Source: Chloroflexaceae bacterium
GTDB lineage: Bacteria; Chloroflexota; Chloroflexia; Chloroflexales; Chloroflexaceae
DNA length: 64,000 nucleotides
Direction: 5' to 3'
Assembly (NCBI GenBank): GCA_025057155.1
Contig: JANWYD010000012.1
Coordinates: 62,001 to 126,000 of the forward strand
The notes under the pieces were generated by a model that worked only from the letters and a program-made list of their open reading frames with translations, made no database searches and had not been told where the DNA came from. Below, piece after piece: positions 9,829 through 16,144 of the stretch; position 1 is the first letter of the stretch, and the number at the start of each line of letters is the position of its first letter. The position numbers and the translations under genes are program-made.

Positions 9829-10881
9829 TCACTCGACGACAATACGCTCGGCGACGTGCTGGTCATTGCTGCCGGCGCTGCCGGCCGCGGCCCCTGAGCT
9901 GTTGAGGAACTCCAGGCGCCGCTCGCGGATCAGCGACGCGACTATCGAGAGAGTGATGAGCGTGGCCACAACGCCAAGCGAGACGGCTGTAGGAATGGCG
10001 AAACTGGCGCCCAACAACAGCTTCGTCAGATCGGGAAGCACCATCTTCACCCCCACGAAGGCCAGCACCACCGCCAGTCCCATGCGCAGGTAATGGAACT
10101 TGTGAACCACGCCAGCGAGCACGAAGTAGAGCGAGCGCAGGCCAAGAATAGCGAAGACGTTTGAAGTGTAGATCAGAAAAGGATCGCGGGTAACGGCGAA
10201 AACGGCCGGGATGGAGTCCAGCGCGAAGATCACATCGGTGGTCTCGACCATTATCAGCACGAGCAGGAGCGGCGTGGCCATGCGCATACCGTGTTGCACG
10301 GTGAAGAACTTCTGGCCATCGTAGGTGGCGCTGACCGGGATGAAGCGGCGGAAGAGGTTCAGGACAGGATTTTTCTCGGGTTCGATCTTCTCGTCGCCAG
10401 AGGTGGCCATTTTGATGCCGGTGAAGATGAGAAAGCCGCCAAAGAGCCAGATGACCCAGTGGAAGCGCTTGATCAGTTCGACGCCGGAAAAGATCATGCT
10501 CGCGCGCATGAGCAATGCGCCGAGGATGCCCCAGAACAGGACGCGGTGCTGGTATTTTGCCGGCACCGCGAAGTATGAGAAGATCATTACGAAGACAAAA
10601 ATGTTGTCAACGCTTAAGGCTTTTTCAATCAAGTAGCCGGTAAGAAAGACCAGGGCGGCATCGCCAGCGCTGTAGGAACTGTTGGGCGCCAGGCGTTCCC
10701 AGAAGAAGAACAGCAGGAGATTGAAGAGCAGGGCCAGACCGATCCAGACCACGCTCCAGATGGCCGCCTCTTTGAGGGCCACGGCATGGGCCCGGCGGTG
10801 GAAGACGCCGAGATCCAGGGCCAGCATGGCGAGCACGAATGCGTTAAATCCCACCCAGAGCCAGAGCATTGTGTCGAACAC
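9829..10881 (-). CDS. TerC-family integral membrane protein (probable Mn2+ exporter)
   Basis: This 350-residue protein with about nine membrane segments matches the TerC/Alx family: LWVGFNAFVLAMLALDLGVFHR at the start, EKALSVDNIFVFVMIFSYFAVP and ETTDVIFALDSIPAVFAVTRDPF in the core, each with the conserved acidic residues in membrane segments. Several family members export Mn2+ or help to metalate exported proteins. The start is GTG at 10881, with an ATG at codon 5 as an alternative. A Mn2+-type riboswitch (11133-11260) lies about 250 bases upstream on the same strand, which supports Mn2+ as the substrate. Confidence 0.92.
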   Translation of the reverse strand: MFDTMLWLWVGFNAFVLAMLALDLGVFHRRAHAVALKEAAIWSVVWIGLALLFNLLLFFFWERLAPNSSYSAGDAALVFLTGYLIEKALSVDNIFVFVMIFSYFAVPAKYQHRVLFWGILGALLMRASMIFSGVELIKRFHWVIWLFGGFLIFTGIKMATSGDEKIEPEKNPVLNLFRRFIPVSATYDGQKFFTVQHGMRMATPLLLVLIMVETTDVIFALDSIPAVFAVTRDPFLIYTSNVFAILGLRSLYFVLAGVVHKFHYLRMGLAVVLAFVGVKMVLPDLTKLLLGASFAIPTAVSLGVVATLITLSIVASLIRERRLEFLNSSGAAAGSAGSNDQHVAERIVVE

Positions 10882-11132
10882 GGAAGATCCCCCTGCTGCG
10901 ATTGCGGATCGCGGATCTGCAATTGCGAATTGAACGCTGGCGCGTCCGGGCCAAGGTCAAACTGATGGGCGCACGAGTCGTCTGGAACTTCTTCTCAAAA
11001 CGATCGGCAATCAGGTGGAGAAAAGCGGCGCAACCAGATCCCCTCGCCTCTCCGCCCAATCGCAGGATCTGCCTGCCCCTCCAGGCATGCACGAGAACAC
11101 CGAGCGGTCCTGATTCTATCACCGAAACAGAA

Positions 11133-11260
11133 CAGGCGAGACATCCGGCAGCCAGGCTGCCCGATGGTCTCGCCTGCACAGCACATGCGCCCTGCCGGCC
11201 GAGGGGCGTCCCCTGTCCTGACGACCGGCAAGCCTGCCTTGCGGCAGGTAGCTACTCCCC
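11133..11260 (-). ncRNA. yybP-ykoY (Mn2+) riboswitch upstream of the TerC gene
   Basis: On the minus strand the leader begins GGGGAGTAG (11260-11252). It continues through a GTCGTCA-type L1 segment and a GC-rich arm and ends in GCGAGACC, the conserved 5' and 3' signatures of the yybP-ykoY aptamer. The AGACC end is the arm of a long hairpin (about 11177 to 11133) whose arms are CAGGCGAGAC and its complement, suitable as an expression switch. A promoter lies 14 bases upstream and a TerC gene downstream, the classic target of this class. Confidence 0.88.
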
Positions 11261-11273
11261 AACGCTACACCCT

Positions 11274-11301
11274 ACTATAGCGGGAAAACTCTCCCCGTCA
11301 A
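11274..11301 (-). promoter_or_regulatory. Promoter of the TerC riboswitch leader
   Basis: Minus-strand TTGACG (11301-11296) and TATAGT (11279-11274) are 16 bases apart. Transcription would start near 11267, directly before the aptamer. Confidence 0.75.
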
Positions 11302-11707
11302 GGGGGGAAAGGCTTCCCAATTCAGCAGCGCAATCGGCACCCCCCACCCTCCCCAGATTTAGGGGCGGACAGAACGCACGAGCGCAGATGTGATTTATGG
11401 CGTTGGGATGCGCCGTTTCACCCTCACCCTGTGCCCCTCTCCCGCACGCGGGAGAGGGGAGGCTGGAGCCGTGCTCGGGGCCGCCTCAATGCGGCAGTGG
11501 CGGTGTTCGCTCGGGTGTTCTGTCCGCCCTTAAAAAGCCCAGGATGGGGCGATCAACCCCTTCCGATTGAGCGCGGCTGCGGAAAACCGGGTTTTCGCGC
11601 CGCCTTTCAACCAGCGATCTTCACCGCGGATCGAGGAAACATGTCCCAGCAATGCAGGAAACGCTCCTCCTATTCATACGGATGGTTATAAACCACCCGT
11701 TGGCAAT
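11302..11707. other. Intergenic core between two divergent riboswitch promoters
   Basis: About 400 bp with no gene. It contains GC-rich low-complexity tracts, a CTCCCGCACGCGGGAG palindrome near 11442-11457 and a weak GGAAAACCGGGTTTTC palindrome near 11581. Confidence 0.55.
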
Positions 11708-11737
11708 TTGACAAAATCTCCATAGCGCAACTATACT
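11708..11737 (+). promoter_or_regulatory. Promoter of the CaCA riboswitch leader
   Basis: A perfect TTGACA (11708-11713) and TATACT (11732-11737) are 18 bases apart. Transcription would start near 11744, five bases before the aptamer. Confidence 0.85.
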
Positions 11738-11744
11738 ACGCTAC

Positions 11745-11880
11745 GGTAGGGGAGTAGCCGCTCGCGCCCCGCGAGACGTCGTGTCGTCATTACGAGGCCA
11801 CGTCCTCCGGCACGGCGAACGTGCATGAACCGTACGTCCGGCAAGACCGCCACGACCTGTAGCGCCGTGGTGGTCTTTCT
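11745..11880 (+). ncRNA. yybP-ykoY (Mn2+) riboswitch upstream of the CaCA gene
   Basis: The sequence begins GGGGAGTAG (11749-11757), has a GTCGTCATTACGAGG segment and a CCGGC element, and closes with GGCAAGACC (to 11848). These are the conserved parts of the yybP-ykoY aptamer, including the invariant AGACC. AAGACC (11843-11848) also pairs with GGTCTT (11872-11877), extended by CCACG/CGTGG, forming a terminator-like hairpin followed by TCTATTTG. An AAGGAGG ribosome site and the GTG start of the exchanger follow. Confidence 0.92.
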
Positions 11881-11918: not shown

Positions 11919-13028
11919 GTGGATTTGGTGACGATCGGGTTGATTGTAGGCGGACTGGCGCTGCTGACAATCGGGGGCGAACTGCTGGTGCGCGGCGCGG
12001 CGGCGCTGGCGGCGCTGGTCGGGGTCAGCCCGCTGGTGATCGGGCTGACGGTGGTCTCATTCGGCACCAGCTCTCCGGAACTGGCGGTCAGCGTACAGGC
12101 CGGTCTGGGAGGCAATCCCGACATCGCCGTCGGCAACGTGATTGGCTCAAACATCTTTAATGTGCTATTCGTGCTGGGGGCCTGTGCGCTGATCGCGCCG
12201 CTGATCGTCTCGATACAACTGGTGCGGCGCGAGGTGCCGATTATGATCGGCGTATGTTTCCTGATGGGCGGCCTGGTCCTCGACGGCAACATTAGCCGGC
12301 TCGATGGAGCGCTGCTCTTTGCGATCCTGGTGGCGTATACGATCTGGTCAATTGTGAGCAGCCGCCGGGAGACCGAAGCGGCCAAACAGGAGTACGCCGC
12401 CGCTTTTAGCGCCGAGCAACTGGCGCCGAAGCGCAGCGCGTGGTCTCTGCTCAAACAACTGGTCCTGGTGATCGGCGGGCTGATCGTGCTCGTGATCGGT
12501 TCGCGCTGGCTGGTGACCGGTGCGGTCAATCTGGCGCAGGCGCTGGGGGTCAGCGATGTGATCATCGGCCTGACGATCGTGGCCGCAGGCACCTCGCTGC
12601 CCGAGGTGGTCGCCTCGCTGGTCGCCACGCTGAAAAATGAGCGCGACATTGCGATTGGCAACGTGGTGGGCTCGAACGTCTTCAATGTCCTGGGCATCCT
12701 CGGCATTTCAGCGCTGGTGACGCCGGAAGGGTTGCCGGTAGCGTCCTCGGTGTTAAACTTCGATCTGCCGGTGATGCTGGCAGTGATGGTGGCATGTCTG
12801 CCGGTGTTCTTCACCGGGATGAGCATCGCCCGCTGGGAAGGGGGCCTGTTCCTGGCCTACTATGTGGCCTACACCACCTACCTGGTCCTCGACGCCACGC
12901 AGCACGACGCTCTGCCGGCTTTCAGCAGCGTCATGGCGCTGTTCGTGCTGCCGCTCACCGCGGTCACCCTGGGGGTGCTGGGGGTGCATGCGTTCATCGT
13001 CAGCCGGCGCGGGGAGCAAGTCACCTGA
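11919..13028 (+). CDS. CaCA-family cation exchanger (YrbG-like)
   Basis: This 369-residue protein has about ten membrane segments in two homologous halves. Each half carries the alpha-repeat signature: VSFGTSSPELAVSV (about residues 43-56) and VAAGTSLPEVVASL (about 220-233), each followed by GNVIGSN or GNVVGSN. These are the ion-binding motifs of Ca2+/Na+-type exchangers. The start is GTG at 11919, with AAGGAGG 8 bases upstream; a TTG at 11883 is less likely. The Mn2+-type riboswitch in front suggests that Mn2+ is exported, possibly with Ca2+. Confidence 0.93.
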   Translation: MDLVTIGLIVGGLALLTIGGELLVRGAAALAALVGVSPLVIGLTVVSFGTSSPELAVSVQAGLGGNPDIAVGNVIGSNIFNVLFVLGACALIAPLIVSIQLVRREVPIMIGVCFLMGGLVLDGNISRLDGALLFAILVAYTIWSIVSSRRETEAAKQEYAAAFSAEQLAPKRSAWSLLKQLVLVIGGLIVLVIGSRWLVTGAVNLAQALGVSDVIIGLTIVAAGTSLPEVVASLVATLKNERDIAIGNVVGSNVFNVLGILGISALVTPEGLPVASSVLNFDLPVMLAVMVACLPVFFTGMSIARWEGGLFLAYYVAYTTYLVLDATQHDALPAFSSVMALFVLPLTAVTLGVLGVHAFIVSRRGEQVT

Positions 13029-13115: not shown

Positions 13116-13484
13116 TTAAGGCAGAATCACCAACTCCCCTTGCTCGGTATGGCCCGGCACGGTACAAAACATCCGGAAGGCGCCGGCCTGGCGAGCGGGA
13201 AAGGCCAGGATGGCGTCAACTCCGGCCTCGGCGGATACAGTACGCCGACCCGACGGCAATTCAATGGTAAGATTGTGGGCGATCACATCGGCATTCCGAA
13301 AGCGAATAAACACCTGCTCGCCCACCCGGGCCTCCAGACGGGGCGAATCATAGCCGGCAGCGGTTACGGTCAACTCCAGTTGCCGTTCCGGCGGCAAGGT
13401 TCCGCACGCGCCCAGACCCAGCAGGATCAGGGCCAGAAGACAGATGCGCAAGTTTTGTTTGAGCATAAGCATCCTCATTAACAC
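13116..13484 (-). CDS. Cupredoxin-like lipoprotein
   Basis: This 122-residue protein has a signal peptide ending in the lipobox LGAC (Cys near residue 27), then a single cupredoxin fold. The type-1 copper ligands are seen as His in IAHNL and as Cys and His in FCTVPGHTEQGE. The axial Met that normally follows the second His is absent. It is probably a surface electron carrier. Several in-frame ATGs are present; the one at 13466 has the best-spaced ribosome site (ATGAGG). It is divergent from the first mrp operon. Confidence 0.82.
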   Translation of the reverse strand: MLMRMLMLKQNLRICLLALILLGLGACGTLPPERQLELTVTAAGYDSPRLEARVGEQVFIRFRNADVIAHNLTIELPSGRRTVSAEAGVDAILAFPARQAGAFRMFCTVPGHTEQGELVILP

Positions 13485-13699
13485 ATGGGAGCATTGTAGT
13501 TCGCCGGGGTTCTGCCTGCCGGGAGTGGAAGGGACGCCCCACCGGTTGTTGTAAAAGAAGATCCGGGTTTTTTTGCTCCACTGCCGCAGGCCGGAAGTGG
13601 TGAGAAGGGCCAGAGCCTGCGGTAAAAGCCGTTGTTCGTTGCGGGTCGCGAGCGTGCAACGCTTGGGTGACCGAGGAGCGACGTGAAGATCAGGAACGA
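13485..13699 (+). promoter_or_regulatory. Leader region of the first mrp operon
   Basis: 215 bp upstream of mrpA. It contains a stem with CCGCAGGC and GCCTGCGG arms around 13583-13622 and a run of seven T residues near 13566. It does not match a riboswitch class I can recognise. No strong promoter hexamers were identified. Confidence 0.35.
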
Positions 13700-16144
13700 A
13701 TGATGCTGGTTCTGATTGTCCTGACAGCCCTGATCATGGCTCCGCTGGGCCTCTTCGCCCGGTACGAGCCGCGCCCTGTGATCGGCTGGATCCTGGCGCC
13801 GATTCCGCTGGCGTTGTTCCTTGCTATCAGCGCGCTCACGCCGGAGGTGCTGGCCGGAGGGCAGGTGGTGCAGGCGATTCCCTGGGCGCCCAGGATGGGC
13901 CTGGAGCTGCGGTTCATGCTCGACGGCCTGAGCATGCTCTTTGCGCTGCTGGTGTCGGGCATCGGCGCCCTGGTGGTGCTCTACACCGCCTACTATCTGG
14001 CCGGCGATCCGGGGATGGGGCGCTTCTACCTGGCGCTGTTCATCTTCATGGGAGCCATGCTCGGGCTGGTGCTGGCCGACAATGTGCTGACCATGTTTAT
14101 GTTCTGGGAACTGACCTCGGTCAGTTCGTACCTGCTGGTTGGCTATAAACACGATTACCCGGAGGCCCGGCGCGGCGCGCAGATGGGGTTGTTGATCACT
14201 GTCGGCGGGGGCCTGGCGCTGCTGGTGGGCCTGGTGCTGCTGGGCACGGCTGCCGGATCATACACGATCTCCGAGATTCTCGCAGCCGGAGAGCGGATCA
14301 AGGCTTCACCGCTCTACACGCCAGCGATGCTGCTGATCTTCCTGGGTTGCTTTACCAAGTCGGCGCAGTTCCCCTTTCACTTCTGGCTGCCTAACGCGAT
14401 GCAGGCCCCCACGCCGGCCAGCGCCTACCTGCACTCCGCCACGATGGTCAAAGCGGGGGTCTACCTGCTGGCCCGGCTGCACCCGACGCTGAGCGATACG
14501 ACGCTGTGGCTCTATACGCTGACTGTGGTGGGGATGACCACGATGCTGGTCGGGGCGGTGGCGGCGAACCGGCGCGACGACATCAAGGGCCTGCTGGCCT
14601 ACAGTACGATCAGCAAGCTCGGCACCATGGTGCTGCTGGCGGGCATGGGCGGCCCTGAGGCTCCCGCCGCCCTGGTGGCGACCATCCTGGCCCACGCGCT
14701 CTACAAAGGGGCCCTGTTTATGCTGGCGGGCGCGGTGGACCACGAAGCGGGCACCCGCAGCCTGGCCCGGCTTGGCGGGTTGCGCCGGGCCATGCCCTGG
14801 ACGGCGGCCCTGGCGATCCTGTCGTCGCTCTCGATGGCGGGCGTACCCATCCTCTTTGGCTTCGTCGCCAAAGAAGAGCAGTTGTACGCCGCGGTGGATA
14901 ATGGCCTGCCGCCGGGCCTTGATGTCGTCGTCCTGATCGCGGTCGTCACCAGCGCGGTCTTCGGGGTGCTCTACTCCTGGCGGCTGGTGAGCGGGGTGTT
15001 CTTCGGCGCCCCCGGCAGCGGGATGAAGGAGCACGTTCACGAGGCCCCAGCGGGGATGCTGATCGGTCCGGCCATCTTGACCACCTTTTCAGTGGTGTTG
15101 CCGCTTGGCCTGCTTCCGACCACCGGTACATTCCTGCAGCCGGCGGTGGATGCGATCTCGAACGAGGCGGCGAAGATCAGTCTGTACCTGTTCCCCTCGG
15201 AGATCAGTCTCCCGCTGATCCTCAGCATGACCGCGCTGCTGATCGGGGCCGTGCTGACGCGCTTTGAACCGCAGATTGTCGCCGCGCCTTCGCCGCTGCC
15301 GCCCTGGCTCAACGGCGACCGCATCTACGACGCAGCGGTTGATGGAGTGCTACAGGGCGCCACGGTCTTTACCCGAACTCTGCAAAATGGGAAGCTTCGC
15401 AGCTACATGACCTGGGCCGTGCTCTCGCTGATCGCCGTAGTGACGCCGCCGCTCTTGCTCTTCGGATTCAACGGGCTGACCTTGCCGAACCTTGACGGGG
15501 TTGAGCCGTTCGAGTTCGTCAGCATGTTGCTCATTCCCATTGGCGTCATCGCAACCCTGCAGGCCCGCTCGCGCCTTGGCGCGATCATCGCCGCCAGTTT
15601 CGTCGGGTTGATGGTGGCCTATATTTTCGTGATCTACAGCGCGCCCGACCTGGCCCTGACCCAGTTGCTGGTCGAGATCCTGACCACGGTGTTTCTGGTG
15701 CTGCTCTTCGCGGTGCTGCCGGCGAGCTTCGAGCGGCTGACAAGCCCTGCCGAGCAGTCGCGCGACGGGCTGATCGCCGTGATCGGCGGGCTGATGTTTG
15801 CCGGGATCGCCTTCGCCGCCTCGAGTAGCACGGAGTTGTCGCCCATCAGCCAGGCGTTTCGCGCTGAAAGCCAGACCCAGGGCTTTGGCGACAATGTGGT
15901 CAACGTCATTCTAGTGGACTTCCGCGGCTTTGACACGATGGGCGAAATCGTGGTGCTGTTTATCGCCGTCCTCGGCATCTATGCGATGCTGCGCCTGCGA
16001 CCGGACGCCAGCCTGGCGCGCGATGACGAGGAAGCGCCGGTGCGGCCGGCCAGACCAGATGAGGCCGTGCTGCACGGGAATGGACAGGACGGCCGTTCAG
16101 CCCCCGATGCACGCGAGGCCCCCGTGGCGGGCAAGGGACGCTAG
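13700..16144 (+). CDS. mrpA: Na+/H+ antiporter subunit A, first operon
   Basis: This 814-residue protein combines an NuoL/MnhA-type antiporter core with the C-terminal extension typical of MrpA. Core motifs include FWELTSVSSYLLVGYKHDYP, QFPFHFWLPNAMQAPTPASAYLHSATMVKAGVY and HALYKGALFMLAGAVDHE. The MrpB-like tail ends DFRGFDTMGEIVVLFIAVLGIY. Mrp complexes exchange Na+ for H+ across the membrane and support pH and salt homeostasis. ATG 13700 (AGGAACGA upstream) is preferred over a GTG at 13667. It is very similar to the copy at 19933. Confidence 0.95.
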   Translation: MMLVLIVLTALIMAPLGLFARYEPRPVIGWILAPIPLALFLAISALTPEVLAGGQVVQAIPWAPRMGLELRFMLDGLSMLFALLVSGIGALVVLYTAYYLAGDPGMGRFYLALFIFMGAMLGLVLADNVLTMFMFWELTSVSSYLLVGYKHDYPEARRGAQMGLLITVGGGLALLVGLVLLGTAAGSYTISEILAAGERIKASPLYTPAMLLIFLGCFTKSAQFPFHFWLPNAMQAPTPASAYLHSATMVKAGVYLLARLHPTLSDTTLWLYTLTVVGMTTMLVGAVAANRRDDIKGLLAYSTISKLGTMVLLAGMGGPEAPAALVATILAHALYKGALFMLAGAVDHEAGTRSLARLGGLRRAMPWTAALAILSSLSMAGVPILFGFVAKEEQLYAAVDNGLPPGLDVVVLIAVVTSAVFGVLYSWRLVSGVFFGAPGSGMKEHVHEAPAGMLIGPAILTTFSVVLPLGLLPTTGTFLQPAVDAISNEAAKISLYLFPSEISLPLILSMTALLIGAVLTRFEPQIVAAPSPLPPWLNGDRIYDAAVDGVLQGATVFTRTLQNGKLRSYMTWAVLSLIAVVTPPLLLFGFNGLTLPNLDGVEPFEFVSMLLIPIGVIATLQARSRLGAIIAASFVGLMVAYIFVIYSAPDLALTQLLVEILTTVFLVLLFAVLPASFERLTSPAEQSRDGLIAVIGGLMFAGIAFAASSSTELSPISQAFRAESQTQGFGDNVVNVILVDFRGFDTMGEIVVLFIAVLGIYAMLRLRPDASLARDDEEAPVRPARPDEAVLHGNGQDGRSAPDAREAPVAGKGR

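Follow-up and report, generated by a model that had tools for sequence, protein, structure and literature searches.

The locus and its two leaders

The window considered here is a stretch of 64,000 nucleotides from the genome (5.13 Mb, 189 contigs) of a Chloroflexaceae bacterium, within which two divergent leaders occupy the gap between a TerC gene on the minus strand and a gene for a CaCA antiporter on the plus strand, each being the 5' leader of a metal-transport gene and each carrying an expression platform. The TerC/Alx-family membrane protein is encoded at 9829 to 10881, from a GTG start at 10881, and matches PF03741 with 183.6 bits and TIGR03718, the family named 'R_switched_Alx', with 423.2 bits, over its curated cut-off of 246.4 bits. 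The CaCA-family cation antiporter, of the YrbG/NCX type, is encoded at 11919 to 13028 and matches PF01699 with 221 bits, TIGR00367 with 278.5 bits (curated cut-off 179.65 bits) and NCX_Mj with an E-value of 3.3e-37; in the alignment with NCX_Mj the GTS.PE motifs are visible in both repeats. Its likely start, read from the sequence, is the GTG at 11919, which is preceded by AAGGAGG and lies within a longest frame that runs from 11883. These assignments agree with the targets and the opposed orientation given in the initial annotation. The CaCA gene is followed by a cupredoxin gene on the minus strand and then by an mrp-type operon on the plus strand (13116 to 16144 and beyond), an order that is kept across the family. 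Speculatively, the Na+ gradient made by Mrp could drive the CaCA protein. Among named contigs, the closest belong to Chloroflexaceae bacterium SKW209 and to an uncultured Chloroflexales bacterium, with CaCA proteins 91% (L020) and 88% (L021) identical to that of the window, respectively, which points to a member of the Chloroflexales (Chloroflexota).

The leader of the CaCA gene opens with a sigma-70-like promoter, TTGACA-18-TATACT (11708 to 11737, plus strand), which agrees with the consensus at 11 of 12 positions and ends 11 nt upstream of GGGGAG; three related loci (L081, L090 and L101) likewise have TTGACA with an 18-nt spacer upstream of the CaCA-side switch. The aptamer follows at 11739 to 11858, with GGGGAG at 11749 and AGACC at 11844, and the leader closes with a hairpin of 12 pairs that resembles an intrinsic terminator (11843 to 11877), has a moderate U-rich tail and takes into its 5' arm the AGACC strand that also forms P1.1 of the aptamer. 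On the minus strand the corresponding elements are a sigma-70-like promoter, TTGACG-16-TATAGT (11274 to 11301; 10 of 12 positions), ending 13 nt upstream of GGGGAG, an aptamer at 11156 to 11270 and a terminator-like hairpin of 20 pairs (11132 to 11177), again with a moderate U-rich tail and with the AGACC strand in common with P1.1. The two promoters closely preceding the leaders compare with a mean of 0.3 in shuffles. Neither hairpin was listed by a simple terminator scan. As with TerC/Alx proteins placed under yybP-ykoY control (TIGR03718), the TerC gene of the window has its switch upstream, but with 274 nt between switch and gene it has the largest offset among the 16 family TerC rows.

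Two other readings of the gap were set aside. A tandem riboswitch, with two aptamers in one transcript, is ruled out by the position of the switches on opposite strands in separate units; the available portion of PMC9481103 describes tandem Mn2+ riboswitches as lacking, and the window pair is not tandem. Between the two promoters, at 11436 to 11457, lies a palindrome, CCTCTCCCGC..GCGGGAGAGG, which is an interspersed repeat; it is ruled out as a regulatory element of the locus by the presence of the same palindrome at 40 places in the genome.

Recognition and structure of the aptamers

The yybP-ykoY or Mn2+ riboswitch, RF00080, is known from yoaB of Lactococcus lactis, from Xanthomonas oryzae and from mntP and alx of Escherichia coli. 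Both leaders carry its signatures, as had been claimed: GGGGAGTAG, GTCGTCA and AGACC are found on both strands in the correct order. The likeness to the class extends to the GGGGAGUAG of loop L1, the CGUCA of loop L3, the AGACC, helices P1-P4 and a terminator that shares a strand of P1.1 as in L. lactis. Unlike the class, this genome and its relatives fall under the gathering cut-off, and two switches lie in divergent leaders of neighbouring genes. The L1, L3 and AGACC elements are conserved in both leaders, including the adenosine in the CGUCA loop that acts as sensor, the residue (A41/A48) whose N7 makes the contact with Mn2+ in the structures from L. lactis and X. oryzae, according to the part of PMC6754395 available.

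At the gathering score of RF00080 (45 bits) Rfam reports no riboswitch in the window, with neither leader reaching the cut-off. At an E-value threshold the plus-strand leader is matched with 30.3 bits (E 2.9e-6) and the minus-strand leader with 14.5 bits (E 0.14), a non-significant match, so that Rfam alone supports just one leader and the covariance check proposed in the initial annotation held for the CaCA side but not for the TerC side. In the window's genome and 40 relatives, RF00080 matches at E up to 0.001 occur in 16 of the 41, and the gathering score is reached by none of them as against 2 of 14 control genomes. The curated RF00080 model fits this group poorly, and the failure to reach the gathering score is thus treated as a limit of that model here rather than as a defining feature of the biology. 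Hits at E-values of 10 or less to further Rfam families (Transposase-2, the antizyme element, miRNAs and others) were rejected, all lying under their own cut-offs.

A covariance model, R1, was built from 21 Chloroflexota leaders that include the CaCA leader of the window and exclude its TerC leader. The training leaders were drawn from RF00080 matches and by a search for the motifs GGGAGTA...AGACC together with CGTCA, and because of this choice the motifs common to them are partly selected for, which does not apply to the covariation in P2 and P3. With R1, whose E-values are rough, the CaCA leader scores 99.8 bits as a member of the training set, and the TerC leader, from outside it, scores 63.0 bits (E 3.2e-13), which rules out a chance match of motifs. 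Across the 5.13 Mb genome R1 returned nothing further at E up to 10, scoring 150 of the 2430 first-look candidates. Counting the window's genome, R1 matches are present in 31 of the 41 genomes of the family when E is at most 0.01, and in 72 of the 301 of the phylum when E is at most 0.001.

The structure common to the 21 leaders comprises 25 pairs, with 94.7% of cells paired and 16 pairs changed on both sides, and it has a covariation score of 0.542 compared with 0.171 in shuffles (0 of 500 as high) and about 0.1 when the structure is slid. Nearly all of the two-sided changes fall in P2 and P3; only one lies in P1.1 and one in P1.2, helices that therefore draw their support chiefly from conservation. 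Across 58 family matches, with the CaCA leader of the window among them and the TerC leader outside, 29 columns are conserved at 93% or more and count as near-invariant. The CaCA leader retains all 29, being itself one of the rows that define them, and the TerC leader 28; its sole change, C to T after AGTAGC, is found too in the TerC leader of another genome, G009. On folding, the TerC leader without the 3' arm of its hairpin forms P1.1, P1.2, P2, P3 and P4, with a probability of about 0.88 for P1.1, and in the full leader this falls to 0.000 and the CC of the AGACC pairs downstream with a probability of only about 0.5. In the CaCA leader the CC pairs downstream with a probability of 1.000 in the full form, where P1.1 again has a probability of 0.000, and in the short aptamer-only form P1.1 lies 1.1 kcal/mol above the best fold, with a probability of 0.07, another register of P1 being preferred.

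Evolution of the divergent pair

Divergent TerC and CaCA genes were recovered at 13 loci, window included; a switch on at least one side led to each of them, and switchless pairs would therefore be missed. Within the stretches available, 12 of these loci have a cupredoxin gene downstream of CaCA and 11 have mrpA there. Both switches occur in three (G000, G009 and G016), a CaCA-side switch only in another three (G001, G002 and G003) and, with filters off, a TerC-side switch only in the remaining seven, all of genus g9. In G001 the TerC side retains a relic of 27.4 bits, in which 6 of the 29 near-invariant columns are changed, including in GGGGAGTAG and AGACC. Searches with filters off for a TerC switch in G002, G003 and G004 gave best scores of 6.7, 4.8 and 4.2 bits, the last from 509 nt of upstream DNA only. 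On the CaCA side of the seven g9 loci, likewise with filters off, nothing convincing was found, and the two highest-scoring stretches (15.9 and 15.3 bits, both at an E of about 0.03) coincide in part with the TerC switch, which is on the other strand; an eighth g9 genome, G048, has no R1 match. The gene pair thus seems more stable than the switch pair. The paired logic proposed in the initial annotation stands in part: a common ligand is probable for the two leaders, which are independent, but both switches are present in just those 3 of 13 divergent loci.

Could the TerC-side leader of the window then be a decaying relic that switches poorly, leaving the CaCA side alone working? Its lower R1 score, the long spacer downstream of it and the state of the TerC side in sister genomes, degraded in G001 and not found in G002 and G003, would be in keeping with such decay. 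The leader, however, retains all but one of the near-invariant columns, with its single change recurring in G009, it keeps a promoter-like site, its aptamer-only form folds as a textbook aptamer, and the TerC-side leaders of the seven g9 genomes score 57-69 bits, the same range as that of the window. Decay of the TerC leader is thus unlikely, and two working leaders are the preferred reading.

Target genes and probable ligand

Family matches of at least 30 bits number 59, after three of 62 (27.4, 14.6 and 13.8 bits) were dropped, and by the longest following frame they precede CaCA genes in 16 cases, TerC in 15, P-type ATPases in 13 and M50 proteases in 5, with the others divided between Spo0M (2), other genes (6), a partial CaCA frame (1) and a match without downstream DNA (1). 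Outside the family, where 46 of the 72 listed places were examined, the targets are P-type ATPases (20), TerC (17, L193 being TerC by Pfam), CaCA (4, all in one other family, f29), VTT-domain or DedA-like proteins (2) and others (3). Within each group, one or a few members were labelled by Pfam and the others by BLAST clustering, and the use of the longest frame makes at least two assignments (L165 and L201) probably those of a wrong frame. With 16 of 59 family matches preceding it, CaCA is a regular target in this lineage, contrary to the earlier description of it as a less usual one. In 24 CaCA loci of other lineages, a few with little upstream DNA, no convincing CaCA-linked switch was found with R1 (best 13.6 bits, E 0.43), and in 20 of them RF00080 gave none at its gathering score.

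A number of other genes also follow the switch. For instance, one contig of 5.3 kb (L088, G006:C537, 1-5285) holds four yybP-ykoY matches of 94-100 bits, preceding genes for an M50 protease, for two proteins of the Spo0M family (138 and 134 bits to PF07070) and for a P-type ATPase, with one Spo0M switch and the ATPase switch forming another divergent pair. The M50 (site-2-like) protease cluster follows a switch in five family loci (L088, L094, L098, L112 and L115), and both proteases tested, those of L094 and L115, combine M50 with CBS domains. A literature search found no paper linking yybP-ykoY to Spo0M or to an M50-type protease. VTT-domain genes (PF09335, DedA-like) follow a switch at L116, L191 and L199, one family locus and two outside.

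The ligand of both leaders is most likely Mn2+, by analogy with the riboswitch family. That one or both instead sense another divalent ion such as Ca2+ is improbable, although a CaCA antiporter is a natural target for Ca2+, yybP variants of altered specificity are expected (in the part of PMC7266159 available) and the Streptococcus pneumoniae mgtA aptamer binds Ca2+ as well as Mn2+, according to an excerpt of PMC9495176. Against this, the Mn2+-contacting adenosine and the L1 and L3 motifs are intact in both leaders, and the other main targets in the phylum, TerC and P-type ATPases, are both named among Mn2+ detoxification and efflux systems in the accessible text of PMC13274385.

A probable switching mechanism

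The sharing of a strand between aptamer and hairpin was surveyed in 105 Chloroflexota matches of at least 30 bits (59 family, 46 outside), with 301 AGACC sites elsewhere in the same loci as controls. The CC of the AGACC-like motif lies in the 5' arm of a hairpin in 99 of 105 matches and 171 of 301 controls; requiring 8 or more pairs in the stem lowers the counts to 98 and 120, and requiring in addition 4 or more U among 8 nt lowers them to 88 and 16. As partial signatures are frequent at control sites, it is the full signature only that clearly sets the leaders apart. By the same test no hairpin was detected on the TerC-side AGACC of G009, a relative with both switches. Of 103 leaders, two of the 105 not being scorable, 49 have a promoter-like site (at least 9 of 12 positions) a short way upstream of GGGGAG, compared with 1.6% of base-shuffled upstream stretches.

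Competition between P1.1 and the terminator is the mechanism of the L. lactis switch in the part of PMC11087558 available, and a corresponding scheme can be proposed for the window. The locus would comprise two independent divergent units, each with a metal riboswitch of the yybP-ykoY class at the 5' end of its mRNA and with Mn2+ as the most likely ligand. At low metal, the strand that closes the aptamer on its 3' side, AGACC and the residues after it, would pair with downstream sequence as a terminator, and neither TerC nor the CaCA antiporter would be made. When the metal is plentiful, it would dock loops L1 and L3 and stabilise helix P1.1, which in turn would keep the closing strand from the terminator and allow read-through. 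The folds fit this competition, which makes ON polarity likely for both switches, again on the model of the family. Control of translation rather than termination, seen in some yybP-ykoY members (E. coli mntP; also PMC9294342) and compatible with the moderate U tails, is very improbable given that some 28 nt lie between the plus-strand hairpin and the likely ribosome site of CaCA, that the minus-strand hairpin ends about 250 nt before the start codon of TerC, and that 88 of 105 leaders of relatives carry the terminator signature.

The aptamer sequence and structure, the promoter-like sites, the strand shared with the hairpin, the target genes and the conservation are computational observations, and together with the family's known behaviour they make it highly probable that both leaders are Mn2+-type yybP-ykoY ON-switches that act by antitermination and drive the TerC and CaCA units. 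The points that tell against this reading are that neither leader reaches Rfam's gathering score, the moderate U tails, the single pair of P1.1 with a two-sided change, the weaker TerC leader with its long spacer, the missing hairpin in the TerC leader of G009, the low probability of P1.1 in the aptamer-only form of the CaCA leader and the modest downstream pairing of the CC in the full TerC leader. We infer that the CaCA protein may move Mn2+, and the 'Mn2+ efflux' role that would attach to the locus is inherited from its protein and riboswitch families.

Significance

The window pair belongs to a known riboswitch class and was correctly read where the curated cut-off misses it, and its CaCA target is a less studied one. 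The component parts were already known. yrbG has been predicted under yybP-ykoY in Vibrio vulnificus (the available text of PMC13274385), where the riboswitch class and, by name, the protein family are the same as here; the window locus differs in belonging to the Chloroflexota, in being divergent from TerC and in lying beside a cupredoxin gene and an mrp operon. A survey of riboswitch regulons that includes Chloroflexi terms yybP-ykoY widespread (PMC3766115, in part). In a search of part of the literature, no paper was found on divergent Mn2+ switches or on yybP-ykoY in Chloroflexus. The new detail is modest, and consists of the paired layout and the piecemeal loss of switches in relatives.

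What this adds for the family is a link between a CaCA antiporter and a probable Mn2+ switch, a working model, R1, for finding the remaining members, and, in the sister lineages, a ready-made comparison in which the gene pair is the same but carries both switches or just one of the two. The main types of Mn efflux protein are CDF, MntP, UPF0016 and the P-type ATPases, as listed in the portion of PMC13274385 available, and CaCA is a candidate Mn2+ exporter. It is tentatively proposed, as a possibility short of an expectation, that the YrbG-type CaCA protein of the Chloroflexota might be a dedicated Mn2+ exporter, forming a further efflux class beside these four, and that TerC and CaCA might form a module in which the gene pair is kept while one side or the other acquires or loses its Mn2+ switch in different lineages.
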